Assembly (NCBI GenBank): GCA_947650365.1
Contig: OX393549.1
Span: 80,092,533-80,156,532, forward strand
Direction: 5' to 3'
Length of the DNA: 64,000 nt
Source of the DNA: Chamaelirium japonicum
Taxonomy: Eukaryota; Streptophyta; Magnoliopsida; Liliales; Melanthiaceae
Made by a program: the position numbers and the translations under genes. Below the pieces are notes generated by a model. The model was given only the letters and a program-made list of their open reading frames with translations. It was not told the DNA's origin and searched no databases. This document shows, one piece after another, positions 1,247 through 7,200 of the stretch (positions are counted from its first letter, which is position 1; every line of letters starts with the position of its first letter).

Positions 1247-4200
1247 GTCATGGACCTCTCACACTTCGGACGTATAAGAGGTATATCATCCTTCAGAAAT
1301 AAGCTGATAAGATTACATAGAATTTTCCTTATCTAAAGTTATTTGCTCATCATCGCTTATGATTTTTCTTTTTTTGTGTGTCATGCTTGTAAAATCAATG
1401 GCAAATCCCTTTTCCTGATATAGATAAATGTCATTATTGACACATGGATTTATGAATGCGCCAATATGTGCATGTTAATGCTCAGTACATAACTTCAATG
1501 ACAAATCCCTTTCTCAAGGCACAATGTGGCATATGTACATGTTAGTTCTCAGTGCTTAACACCACTTTCAGGCCTCCTTAAAAATAGATTTACTCTTCTA
1601 CAAAACAATTCACTGTATGCAATTTTCAAGTATTCATATTGATCTTTTAGTTGCAAAAAAAAAAAGATCTTTGCATTAGGAGCTACATTATTGACTATCA
1701 TTGTTATTATCCCTTTCCCTACTTCTCTTTCCTTTCCTCTATCTAAACTTTCAACATGTATTTACCTGGTTTGTTGGCACAAGCTGTGGCAGGATAGATA
1801 TTTGGTTGATAGGCACTTAAATTTTTTTGCTCAAACCTTATGTGGAGCCTTGTAGATTTATGCTCCAAAGTCAATCCCATCCAGACATTACATGGTTTAG
1901 TTGTTGTCGTAGTAGTCTCATTTGTTAAAGCAGTAATATACACATGTTGTATTCCCTTTTTTTGTGCAAAGTTATTTTTTAAATAAATTTCTTTACGATG
2001 TGATGCAAATATAACTTCTAGTGACATAAAAAAGAAGGGGGAATGATGCATGCATGGTTCTTTGAAGAACACAAGTGCAGAATTTTAGTTATTAAAAGTC
2101 AATTTCGGCACTTTATATTTAAATTTCAGCAATGCTAAAAGAGAGCTAATCACTACCAAACATGAACCAATCAAGTTTACTTAAACAAAGGCCACCAGAG
2201 AGAACGTAAACATGCAATTCCAGAATTTATAGATAAGCTCTAGCAATGAAACATTAAAAAAATATCTCAAATAGATGGCAATAGTCTCAAACAAAATATA
2301 GATCTAAAGATGAGATAATCTAATGAATAAGATTTATAAGAAGTCAATAGTGATTTATGCCAAAATGAAATTAGCAAATAGGCCAAAGAAAGAGGAACAA
2401 TTGCCACACAAAGTATCGCTGTAAGAGCTAACTGTGCTTTGGCCAATGTCTTTTGCTAACAGTACTCCAGTGTCGCGGATGAAGAGGCGAAAGAGGGAGT
2501 GTGGTCCGGAAGAAGAGGTGAAGACACTGAGATGAAGCGATCTCTAAAGAATAAGGATCCTTGGACCGATATCTCGCGAAGACGTAGACGAAGTGGATAC
2601 GGAGGCACAAAAGCTTGTGGTAAGAAGAATAGATGAGGAAGCAGAGTTGTAGAAGACTCTCGAACAAGCGAACACACTCCTTCTCGAAATAGGGGTTTTT
2701 CAATTCATATCAATAATCAATGGGGCACTAGGGTTTCACATTAGGGTATATATAGTGGAACTGTGGAAGAGAAAGAAAGAAAGAAAACAAGGTGCAAGAG
2801 GGTAAAAGGAACCGCAACATGCGTACCGAGGATGTGTTATGCGTCCGTACGAGAGAGAGAGAGAGAGAGAGAGAGAGAGAGAGAGAGAGAGAGAGAGAGA
2901 GAGAGAGAGAGAGAGAGAGAGAGAGAGAGAGAGGTGATGTTTCATCTATGTGGGCCCTCTTTCGGCTTCTTTGATTCTCATCTGTTGAGATTAAATCTCA
3001 ACTAAAGATCCTACGCTATCCCATGTAGCTTATTAATGACTAATGAGTCAGTTCGCTTTTATGGATTGAACTGGATGCAAACATGGCTCACACTTACCCC
3101 AAACCAGAAATAGAAAACTTAAATATCTCCTCATCCGGGATTCCGATTTACATCAAACTGAAAGCGAATTAAAGATTACTGAAAGGGCTTTCTATCTAGC
3201 CAAACGATGCTCTGATTGAGCTCCTTAATTTTCACGGGGAGTCAAAATAAGTGATCAACTGTAGCAAAAACTGCACGCACAAACTCGTCTGTATCAGGGA
3301 AGGGGAGGGAGGAACGGAAGAATTAGTAGATAGGATGTGAGAAGTGTGAATAATTGGTGCATGAAGCCTAATGAAAACAATTACTTTACTTCTCTAAATA
3401 TAGGAAAATGGGTTCCTATGACATGTCATAGGGAGTACCCTATGACATATGGTGAATTAGTAATCCTAGAATATTTAGAATGTTCTGATTTTTAATGAGG
3501 ATGATCACCCTATCTTAGATAGGACACCCACAAAAAATCGGCACATTCTAAAACTTCTAAGGGCATCAAATATGCTTTTCAATTTAAAGGTTAAATTGAA
3601 TGGCTAAAAAAGTTTCTAGCATTTGATGCCCCAACAAGTTTTAGAATGCTTTGATTTTTTGTGGACATTCTATCTAAGGTAAGATCATCACCCTCAAAAA
3701 AATTCAGCACATTCTAAATATTCTAGCATTACTAATTCACCGTATGTCATAGGGTACTCCCTATGATATGTCATAGGAACCCAGCCCTCATATATATATA
3801 TATATATATATATATATATATATATATATATATATATATATATATATATATATATATAATCCCTCAAGTGCGATATGTTGGTGCGATCCACTTCGTGCGA
3901 CCTTGACGAGTAACATATGTACCAGAGGGATTGCAACATATGCAGTGAAGCACAACTTGTGGATATTAGCTATCCTGCACCGCCCAACCGCCTAATGCAA
4001 CATATGCAATGGAAGTTGTGCAACATATGCAATGGAGCACAGCCACACATAGGTGTTAGCGAGCAAACATATGTTAACTGTGATGCATGTACCGCCCAAA
4101 CAATCATCACAATCATACAAATTAAATCGGGCAGCCCACAATGCTCGGTTCGCACCCATTATATATATATATATATATATATATATATATATATATATAT

Positions 4201-7200
4201 ATATATATATATATATATATAGAATACGGGGTATGTGCTGACAACCCATTTGCCCATTTGGGCTGTCATCACACAGCCGTCCGATCAAGATCATCAGCTT
4301 TTGGTTTATAAAAAAAACACACACACAAAACACACCGTACACCTCTCTCTCTCTCTCTCTCTTTCTCTCCCTCTCCCTCTCTCTCTCTTTCTCGCGAGCC
4401 GCAGCCCCATCCCCGACCACCTCCATGTCCCGCTCCAGCTGCCCCCTCCGGCACCGGCACCGGCTCCCCCCTCCGGCACCGGATCCGGCTCCCCCCTCCG
4501 GCACCGGCTCCCCCGCGGCTTCCTTCTCCTCCCCCTTCGGCGTCACCCCCTCCGATCTCCGGCAGCATCCTCCGGCGCGGATCTGGGATCCGGTGCTCCC
4601 CTCCCCCTCCGACCACCTTCCACTCCCCCTCCGGCGCCGACCAGCCCCGACCTCCAGTTCCCGAGGCTCCCCTTCCCGATCTCCTCCTTCCCCGCGGGCA
4701 GCCACCTTCGACGCCAGTGGAAGGTGGTCGGAGGGGGAGGGGAGCACCAGATCCGCGTCGGAGGGTGCTGTCGAAGATCGGAGGGGGTGACGCCGCCGGA
4801 TAGGGAGCTAGTGCCGGAGGGGGGTGCTCGCGATCGGCAGGGAGTGGAAGGTGGTCGGAGGGGCTGCTCGCGATCGGCAGGGAGAGAGACAGACATCGTG
4901 CAATTTTTTTTTTTTAATGGAGGGCTGATGATCTTGATCGGACGGTTGTGTGCTGACAGCCCAAATGGGCAAATGGGCTGTCAGCTCATACCCCGTATTC
5001 TTTCTCTCTCTCTCTCTCTCTCTATATATATATATATATATATATATAGAGAGAGAGAGAGAGAGAGAGAGAGAGAGAGAGAGAGAGAGAGAGTGAGTGA
5101 GAGATAGAGAGAGAGTAGTGATACATTACGGCCGGGGTTAACGTGCGGATTCCGTGCGGCGGGCCGGGGGGTGTACGGGCCGTTCGATCAACCGATCCAA
5201 CGATCGGGATTCAGCCCCCCCATCGACCGCAACTGTTACTGTGGCGGGCGAATGATCGAACGGCTATAACCTTTAACCGGGGCGGAAAGATTTGTGCCGT
5301 TCGATTCACGACGATCGGACGGCCGGGGTTCAACCCCCCACCGAAATCGCTGTTACTGTGCCCGCCACAGTAACAACGATTTGTCGGTGGGGGGGCTAAA
5401 TCCCGATCGTTGGATCGGTTGATCGGACGGCCCGTACACCCCCCGGCCAGCCGCACGGAATCCGCATGTTAACCCCGGCCGCAATGTATCACTACTCTCT
5501 CTCTCTCTCTCTATGTATATATATATATATATATATATATATATATATATATATATATATATATATATATATATATATATATATAGGGTTCCGATCGGGT
5601 GAGAAACCTCTTATATGCGAAACCTTGTGTGAAACCAATCTAGAGGCTTTAGAATTCGATGAAACTTGGTAGGTGTGCTACCTATGCCAAGTTGATCATC
5701 TTCACCAAAAATCATTAAACTCTAAAACCTCTAGGGGCATCAAATGTTAGAAGACTTACCGACCGTCCATAAAAACCGTTAATTTGAATAGCATATTTGA
5801 TAAGCCTAAATGTTTTAGATTTTGATGATTTTTGGCGAAGATGATCAACTTGACATAAGTAGCAAGCCTACCAAGTTTTATCGAATTCAAAAACCTCTAG
5901 GTTGGTTTCGCACAAGGTTTCGCATATAAGAGGTTTTTCACCCGATCGGGACCATATATATATATATATATATATATATATATATATATATATATATATA
6001 TATAATGCACAAACACAATATGCCGAAAAAAAAACAAACCTATGTAAAGACAGAATACCCAAGTTAAACTAGTCAAACTTGTGTTATTTTTATATGAGAG
6101 GCTGCTGCAATAGTTTGCCGTGTAAAGGTAAACAATGCCATAATCTGGGATGGGTTAAGCCTTTTAAGGGCATCGGAGAAGAGACGAATGCCTATAGAGG
6201 TATCTTACCAGTATTCGACTGTTATATTGTTTCCACATGGATATGACAAGGTATTTGAAGTATCTGAGTATCATAGGTGATAGCTCTCTTCTAAGCTTCC
6301 TGGCATTCTTTTATGATCTACCCCATCTCGGAATCTCCTCCATATCTAGGAAGAAACATTAAGTTTTGAGATGATGCACCATCATTATGTAATAGCAAGA
6401 CACGATATAGCTCTTTGGTTGGGGGGCAGAATCTTCATCTTACATTAGTATCTAGAACTACTTAGTTGTGTCATTGGAAAGGTTAGTTTTTCAAGGGAAA
6501 TTTATGTTGCATGCCAATTGAATTAGACTGCTTGATTCATGTTTTACTCCTTTATTTATATTTTGTGGTGTTGAAAAATTATTATCTCTTGCTTATTCAG
6601 TTACTGGAGAAGACCGAGTTCGATTTCTTCACAACCAAACTACGGCAAATTTTGAATCTCTCTCAGATGGAGAGGTGACTTAGCTTTACGATTCTTATTT
6701 GAATTCTTGTTCAATTGATGATTTGATAACGGGGATAATATGATGAAGTTCTTTCTTGAAGAATGCAGGGATGTGACACCATTTTTGTTACTCCAACTGC
6801 TCGAACAATTGACATTGCGCATGCTTGGGTTATGGTTAAGTGCTTTCCATGTTTCACATATTAAATAAAATTGTGCTTTTTTCTTGTTACATTTCGACTC
6901 AGTTATGGATTCATTGTTACTTATCTCGATATTGAAGTATTAAGACTCTTTATGTTTTCAGAAACATGCAATAATGTTACTTGTCTCACATTGTACCTGC
7001 AGAAGCATAGCTGAAATGCTTAACAAGTATGTCCATGGCATAATCTTTCTGAAATTAGTTTTCAACTGAATCACCTAAAATGTATCACTGTCATGTATTT
7101 AGTTTCTTTTTGTTTGCTCACTTTACTGTAATTGTTATTTCCTAGACAGCTATAATATTTATACTTGGATAAATATTTGCTTTCTTTTCTCTCTATCTAG

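Follow-up and report, generated by a model that had tools for sequence, protein, structure and literature searches.

The DNA analysed here is a 64,000-nucleotide (nt) stretch of contig OX393549.1 of Chamaelirium japonicum (assembly GCA_947650365.1, positions 80,092,533 to 80,156,532 of the forward strand), hereafter the window. At 3403-6004 it holds a cluster of five units, all given on the + strand: the foldback elements F1 to F4 and a non-hairpin unit, U. An earlier note on this DNA had described five unique units joined only by simple-sequence arrays, four of them near-complete hairpins, and had suggested that foldback elements inserted time and again into TA-type microsatellites. The units are indeed linked solely by TA, GA and CT arrays: (AT)34 at 3790-3858 links F1 and U, (TA)31 at 4160-4221 links U and F2, a compound (TC)10-(AT)12-(GA)n array at 5003-5115 links F2 and F3, (CT)9-ATG-(TA)35 at 5495-5585 links F3 and F4, and (AT)25 at 5954-6004 ends the cluster. 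A sixth foldback element, F6 (13760-14028, + strand, ends GGGGAGGGATACTC), lies outside the noted cluster and is also TA-flanked, with a TA array on its left (13669-13759) and (TA)18 on its right (14029-14064).

When the window was compared with itself (arms no more than 1.5 kb apart, no shorter than 40 nt and with less than 60% simple sequence), all seven rows aligned over at least 140 nt fell in F1, F2, F3, F4 or F6, while shorter rows occurred elsewhere too. The hairpin arms of F1, F2, F3 and F4 are 83-90% complementary, and their folding energies lie 25 to 32 standard deviations (SD) under the mean of 20 dinucleotide shuffles; the four hairpins are thus borne out by both arms and energies. 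U, only 2.0 SD under its own shuffle mean (again 20 dinucleotide shuffles), is not a hairpin and has one terminal repeat only; terminal inverted repeats are present in F1, F2, F3, F4 and F6 and absent as a pair in U. Rfam and tRNA scans of the window, the latter run with a bacterial setting, returned nothing.

Elements of the cluster and their relatives

F1 is a foldback miniature inverted-repeat transposable element (MITE) at 3403-3789, limits that were set by comparison with its genome copies; its left end is GGAAAATGGGTTCC and its right end GGAACCCAGCCCTC (arms 3409-3571/3621-3783). F4 (5586-5953; arms 5536-5745/5795-6004), another foldback MITE, is a relative of F1, at 68% over 196 nt (E 4e-23), so that the word unique was too strong for the five units. 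Most other F4 copies end in GGGACCC, the last C of which is replaced or lost in the window copy. Within F1, a module of about 105 bp matches not only F4 but also four families found elsewhere in the genome, K, M, Y and Z, all with other ends; it was sought in F2, F3, F6, G, S and X and was not found. These further families are named after units in fetched genome loci (L-numbers): S, about 150 bp (L011 957-1106), M (L011 1925-2324), K (L012 958-1350), Y (L021 1783-2164), G (L026 1935-2559), Z (L026 2667-3241) and X, a 904-bp unit of L003.

U (3859-4159) begins with CCCTCAAGTGCGAT..., which is like the terminal repeat of a relative in L002. That relative has a 30-nt terminal inverted repeat with 25 matches (score 35, under the cut-off of 40), and the window U shares its left half; no right end matching CCCTCAAGTGCGAT was found in the window U. 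In L002 (1498-2343), F1 is again followed by U, as it is in the window, and the outer left flank is without a match; coincidence and array transfer could each account for the shared order.

F2 (4222-5000; arms 4174-4317/4905-5048) has terminal inverted repeats of about 95 bp (GAATACGGGGTATG...) and a GC-rich, partly self-complementary core. A segment in L031 (1892-2664) has F2-like ends around a GC-rich core without a match to that of F2, which suggests core exchange or capture. F3 is a foldback element at 5116-5494 with ends TAGTGATACATT (arms 5025-5227/5383-5585), and its interior is shorter than in full genome copies such as that in L013 (about 590 bp). The F6 family is homogeneous, the best 40 scored copies being 94-96% identical to the window copy.

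Genome copies lie at TA arrays and next to other families

The genome searched was the window's own assembly (1.52 Gb, 3253 contigs). F3, F4 and F6 were used as queries free of arrays, and the best 40 copies were scored out of 1710, 3545 and 1819 candidates, respectively, which is not a random sample; a first genome query had included an AT array, and its F1 loci were not used as flank evidence. All 14 fetched copies of F6, the window copy excluded, were flanked on either side by TA arrays no more than 40 bp away. F4 had them on both sides in 8 of 14 copies, on one side in 5 and on neither in 1; the ends used were those of the matches, which were only partial for two of the copies. For F3, 25 loci gave 43 readable termini, and 42 of these had a dinucleotide array within 40 bp, overlapping loci L015, L017, L028 and L033 being left out; this count of termini replaces an earlier one on 25 half-elements, of which 3 had arrays on both sides, 21 had one on a single side and 1 had none. 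By comparison, of 18,839 intervals of 370 bp placed at random in the remainder of the window, none lay between two arrays and 4.6% had an array on at least one side; random intervals in 20 loci of Mutator-like element (MULE) transposases gave 0 and 0.4%. The earlier note had proposed checking the flanks of the hairpins across the genome; for these three families, TA-array flanks are far commoner than in the controls, and the copies often lie next to other families.

Mixed arrays are not the oddity that the earlier note took them for, since several families lie side by side in many fetched loci. Terminal inverted repeats were present in 73 of 85 segments between two TA arrays vs 6 of 89 other array-to-array segments, in loci that were chosen by F1 and F3 and are therefore biased towards arrays (the overlapping L001, L009, L015, L017, L028 and L033 being left out of this and the junction-order count below). 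Single-linkage clustering sorted the 85 TA-to-TA segments into 14 clusters; in 9 of these, at least one segment has terminal inverted repeats, some ends being similar. When 86 stretches and the window were scanned by script with an identity threshold of 78%, none of nine families had a copy split by an insert.

Bare and occupied copies of a host repeat

Two copies of an interspersed host repeat, R, lie in the window and allow an empty-site comparison: one at 45349-46231 (+ strand) with its own unoccupied (AT)50 at 45449-45548, and a second at 20513-21334 with (AT)16 at 20613. The internal TA array is at the same place in both, and the flanks of R gave no match to the element queries. Among 40 scored copies of R, counted by eye, 20 ran through the TA array without a break (as a single match in 15, as two overlapping matches in 5), 5 had flanks split by 142-491 bp and 1 had a 33-bp gap; the right flank was accompanied by a displaced TA piece in 1 and stood alone in 13. 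The left flank of the C348 copy was recognised only on reading its sequence.

Four of the five split copies were read. Three of them hold an S element (L089, L090 and L091) and one an M-type foldback (L092); the flanks of R match on both sides of the insert in L089, L090 and L092, and the left match is weak in L091. The displaced copy was also read and contains an S element, past which lie pieces of another element. R in L094 has an element-free (TA)41. Because the split copies hold both S and M-type elements, the TA arrays of R have been entered more than once and by at least two element types. Collectively, these results, which compare copies within one genome rather than sister accessions, indicate that pre-existing TA arrays are entered and that the empty sites of R are bare TA arrays.

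Relation to published elements and proposed mechanism

Elements of this kind have been described before. SaTar elements of guayule, rice, sorghum and citrus have terminal inverted repeats, reside in TA and other microsatellites and form linear arrays of mixed families in which none interrupts another; they are classed as non-autonomous MULEs, and those of guayule are about 0.4-1.7 kb long (PMC5907723). The corresponding features here are microsatellite flanks that are mostly TA, terminal inverted repeats, uninterrupted mixed arrays and bare-TA empty sites. The two differ in that SaTar ends were tied to autonomous MULEs, whereas those found here were not, and in that SaTar flanks were often unfit for a target duplication, whereas F6 has an odd phase in 257 of 272 copies (PMC5907723; see below). 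As far as their reports describe them, MuTAnT of Medicago is a foldback of four similar segments with GGGG ends, found in TA arrays with TA empty sites and making 9-nt duplications outside arrays (PMC4486113), and Ac-mMITE-1/2 of pineapple are MITEs that form clusters in TA arrays by inserting next to one another, with 9/10-bp duplications outside the arrays (PMC8449440). MuTAnT, however, is one family with a known mudrA-like partner (its authors found duplications inside repeats hard to determine), and the pineapple elements, likened here by description and not by sequence, are two families, compared with 9 of 14 clusters that hold segments with terminal inverted repeats here. Micron of rice, a short element in TA arrays as described in PMC5907723, is set beside them by description only. 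The locus is therefore, by its description, an array of the SaTar/MuTAnT/Ac-mMITE type; because the same kind has been published in guayule, rice, sorghum, citrus, Medicago and pineapple (PMC5907723, PMC4486113, PMC8449440), the new microsatellite-targeting superfamily that the earlier note envisaged is not called for.

We consider it very probable that the cluster is a SaTar-type array of several short, non-autonomous, probably Mutator-like foldback families, each inserted by cut-and-paste into an existing TA microsatellite. An element would enter an existing TA array and split it, and each insertion would duplicate a fixed number of bases. Two TA arrays would be left per insertion, both open to further elements, and different elements would stack side by side because each insertion leaves two new TA targets; GA and CT tracts would grow later at the element ends. 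The repeated foldback insertion proposed from the window is supported by the flanks of genome copies, by the unbroken and split sites of R and by the phase of the target sites. Association with TA arrays, unbroken as well as split copies of R, mixed arrays and a fixed parity in F6 are the observations on which this reading stands.

Probable growth of GA and CT tracts

Across 32 loci and the window, TA-then-GA junctions were counted 30 times and CT-then-TA junctions 29 times, with 0 and 0 in the reverse orders; the array at 5003-5115 has the order CT-TA-GA, as had all compound TA/GA/CT junctions counted. This order agrees with the pineapple report, according to which GA lies mostly at the 5' ends of Ac-mMITEs and TC at the 3' ends, likely by slippage (PMC8449440). 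The GA/CT tracts thus look like growth from element ends, for which slippage would be the likely origin.

It could be argued that the same holds for the TA arrays, that is, that the elements carry short TA/GA ends from which the arrays grew after insertion, making the arrays a result rather than a target. The junction order is as expected if tracts grew from GA/TC ends, and such growth after insertion has been reported for maize TAFTA elements (PMC5907723). For the GA/CT part this account is compatible with insertion into existing arrays. Against it, 28 of 77 GA/CT arrays of at least eight units in the loci do not adjoin TA (49 do), R holds long element-free TA arrays ((AT)50 at 45449, (AT)16 at 20613 and (TA)41 in L094), and 20 of its 40 scored copies are unbroken. 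We therefore regard growth as an unlikely origin of the arrays as a whole; of the suggestion in the earlier note that elements carry and extend arrays, the GA/CT part may well hold, and the TA part is not needed.

Phase of the flanking TA arrays

Slippage alters a TA array by two bases; therefore, the letters that flank an element should still show whether the target duplication was odd or even. Phase was counted genome-wide with exact patterns made of 10-nt ends and 6 nt of TA per side, and control patterns read backwards gave no match in the genome. Exact TA-flanked copies of F6 were odd in 257 of 272 cases (even A...T in 6, even T...A in 9), whereas 136 of 272 would be expected to be odd if the ends were independent (A share per end 0.494). 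Parity is thus fixed in F6, and its phase fits an odd target duplication such as 9 bp, the figure itself being our inference. In element orientation, 14 clean copies of F6 were A/A in 7, T/T in 6 and T/A in 1. Exact copies of S were even A...T in 512 of 565 cases (odd in 49, even T...A in 4), and all 16 F3 termini that touch TA directly are preceded by A. All clean copies of Y (6), M (2) and G (1) were odd; the clean-copy counts and the split-copy script left out L001, L009, L015, L017, L028, L033, L039 and L054. Parity pooled over all segments (46 even, 25 odd) was set aside, since it lumps different families and GA tracts together.

These counts bear on the model put forward, as speculation, for SaTar, where many flanks were unfit for a target duplication: circular intermediates with microsatellite filler would recombine by homology into existing arrays (PMC5907723). 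Recombination would explain both the array specificity and the side-by-side order, and F1 (5 copies) and S (512 of 565) hold one phase, as carried filler would. We infer, however, that carried filler should hold one phase per lineage, and in F6 both odd phases are about equally common (A/A 7 and T/T 6 of 14), yet parity is odd in 257 of 272. The phase therefore favours cut-and-paste over recombination for F6, while F1 and S leave the choice undecided; for the array as a whole, we think recombination decidedly improbable. Misjoining of reads through TA arrays, which are hard to assemble and were analysed here in an assembly without reads, can be dismissed almost entirely, since independent loci on many contigs hold mixed arrays as well and single insertions are flanked on both sides by one repeat, R (L089, L090 and L092, with L091 weak on the left).

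The chances seem to us evenly balanced that at least two groups of different insertion geometry share the TA arrays: F6, and probably Y and G, with an odd duplication and no phase preference, and S and F3 with an even duplication held in the TA-centred phase. If so, TA arrays would be shared landing sites for different transposases, and array phase would separate cut-and-paste from recombination. Phase counts in exact copies give the parity of the duplication, are feasible in any genome with such arrays and make the two mechanisms testable from assemblies. A targeted search covering few subscription journals returned no paper that, by title and abstract, dealt with phase or parity in such arrays; what this work adds is the reading of phase.

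Transposase loci and observations that weigh against insertion

MULE transposase domains are abundant in the genome (PF10551 search, 150 scored of 1214 candidates), and a MULE transposase is probably supplied in trans. No autonomous partner with the same ends was tied to the elements in 20 such loci read to 1.5 kb, which is too short for ends.

Several observations count against cut-and-paste insertion into TA arrays. Within 1.5 kb per side, the 20 MULE-transposase loci showed no TA array of at least six units and no element match other than GA/CT tracts. The window copy of F1 is without a left-hand array, which eight other full copies have. The single copy with both flanks array-free, an F4 in L052, has an imperfect duplication (8 of 10 bases, or 8 of 9 if shifted), to be set against the 8-11 bp that mark MULE insertions outside arrays. 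F4 parity is mixed, with one even and one odd among two clean copies only; the five F1 copies in which both ends are standard are odd, but all in one phase; and the even phase of S is also roughly what would be expected if each end, independently, preferred an A before it. Two segments, one with F4- and F6-like pieces (L023 175-859) and one with two partial F6 pieces (L037 438-892), could have arisen by fusion or by nesting. Finally, the unbroken copies of R could in principle be post-excision sites, which would need this to hold for half of the copies.

Other features of the window

At 53178-55337 the + strand has two open frames, possibly a gene or an old MULE relative; a SWIM zinc finger in the second scores just above its cut-off. 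Two remnants of a hAT-like gene lie at 27896-28378 and 32703-34502, with DUF4371 in both and a hAT dimerisation domain in the second, and GA arrays at 29702 and 35687 stand in a similar context about 1.2-1.3 kb beyond the two remnants. A 107-bp unit is repeated in tandem in 14.7 copies at 38520-40084.

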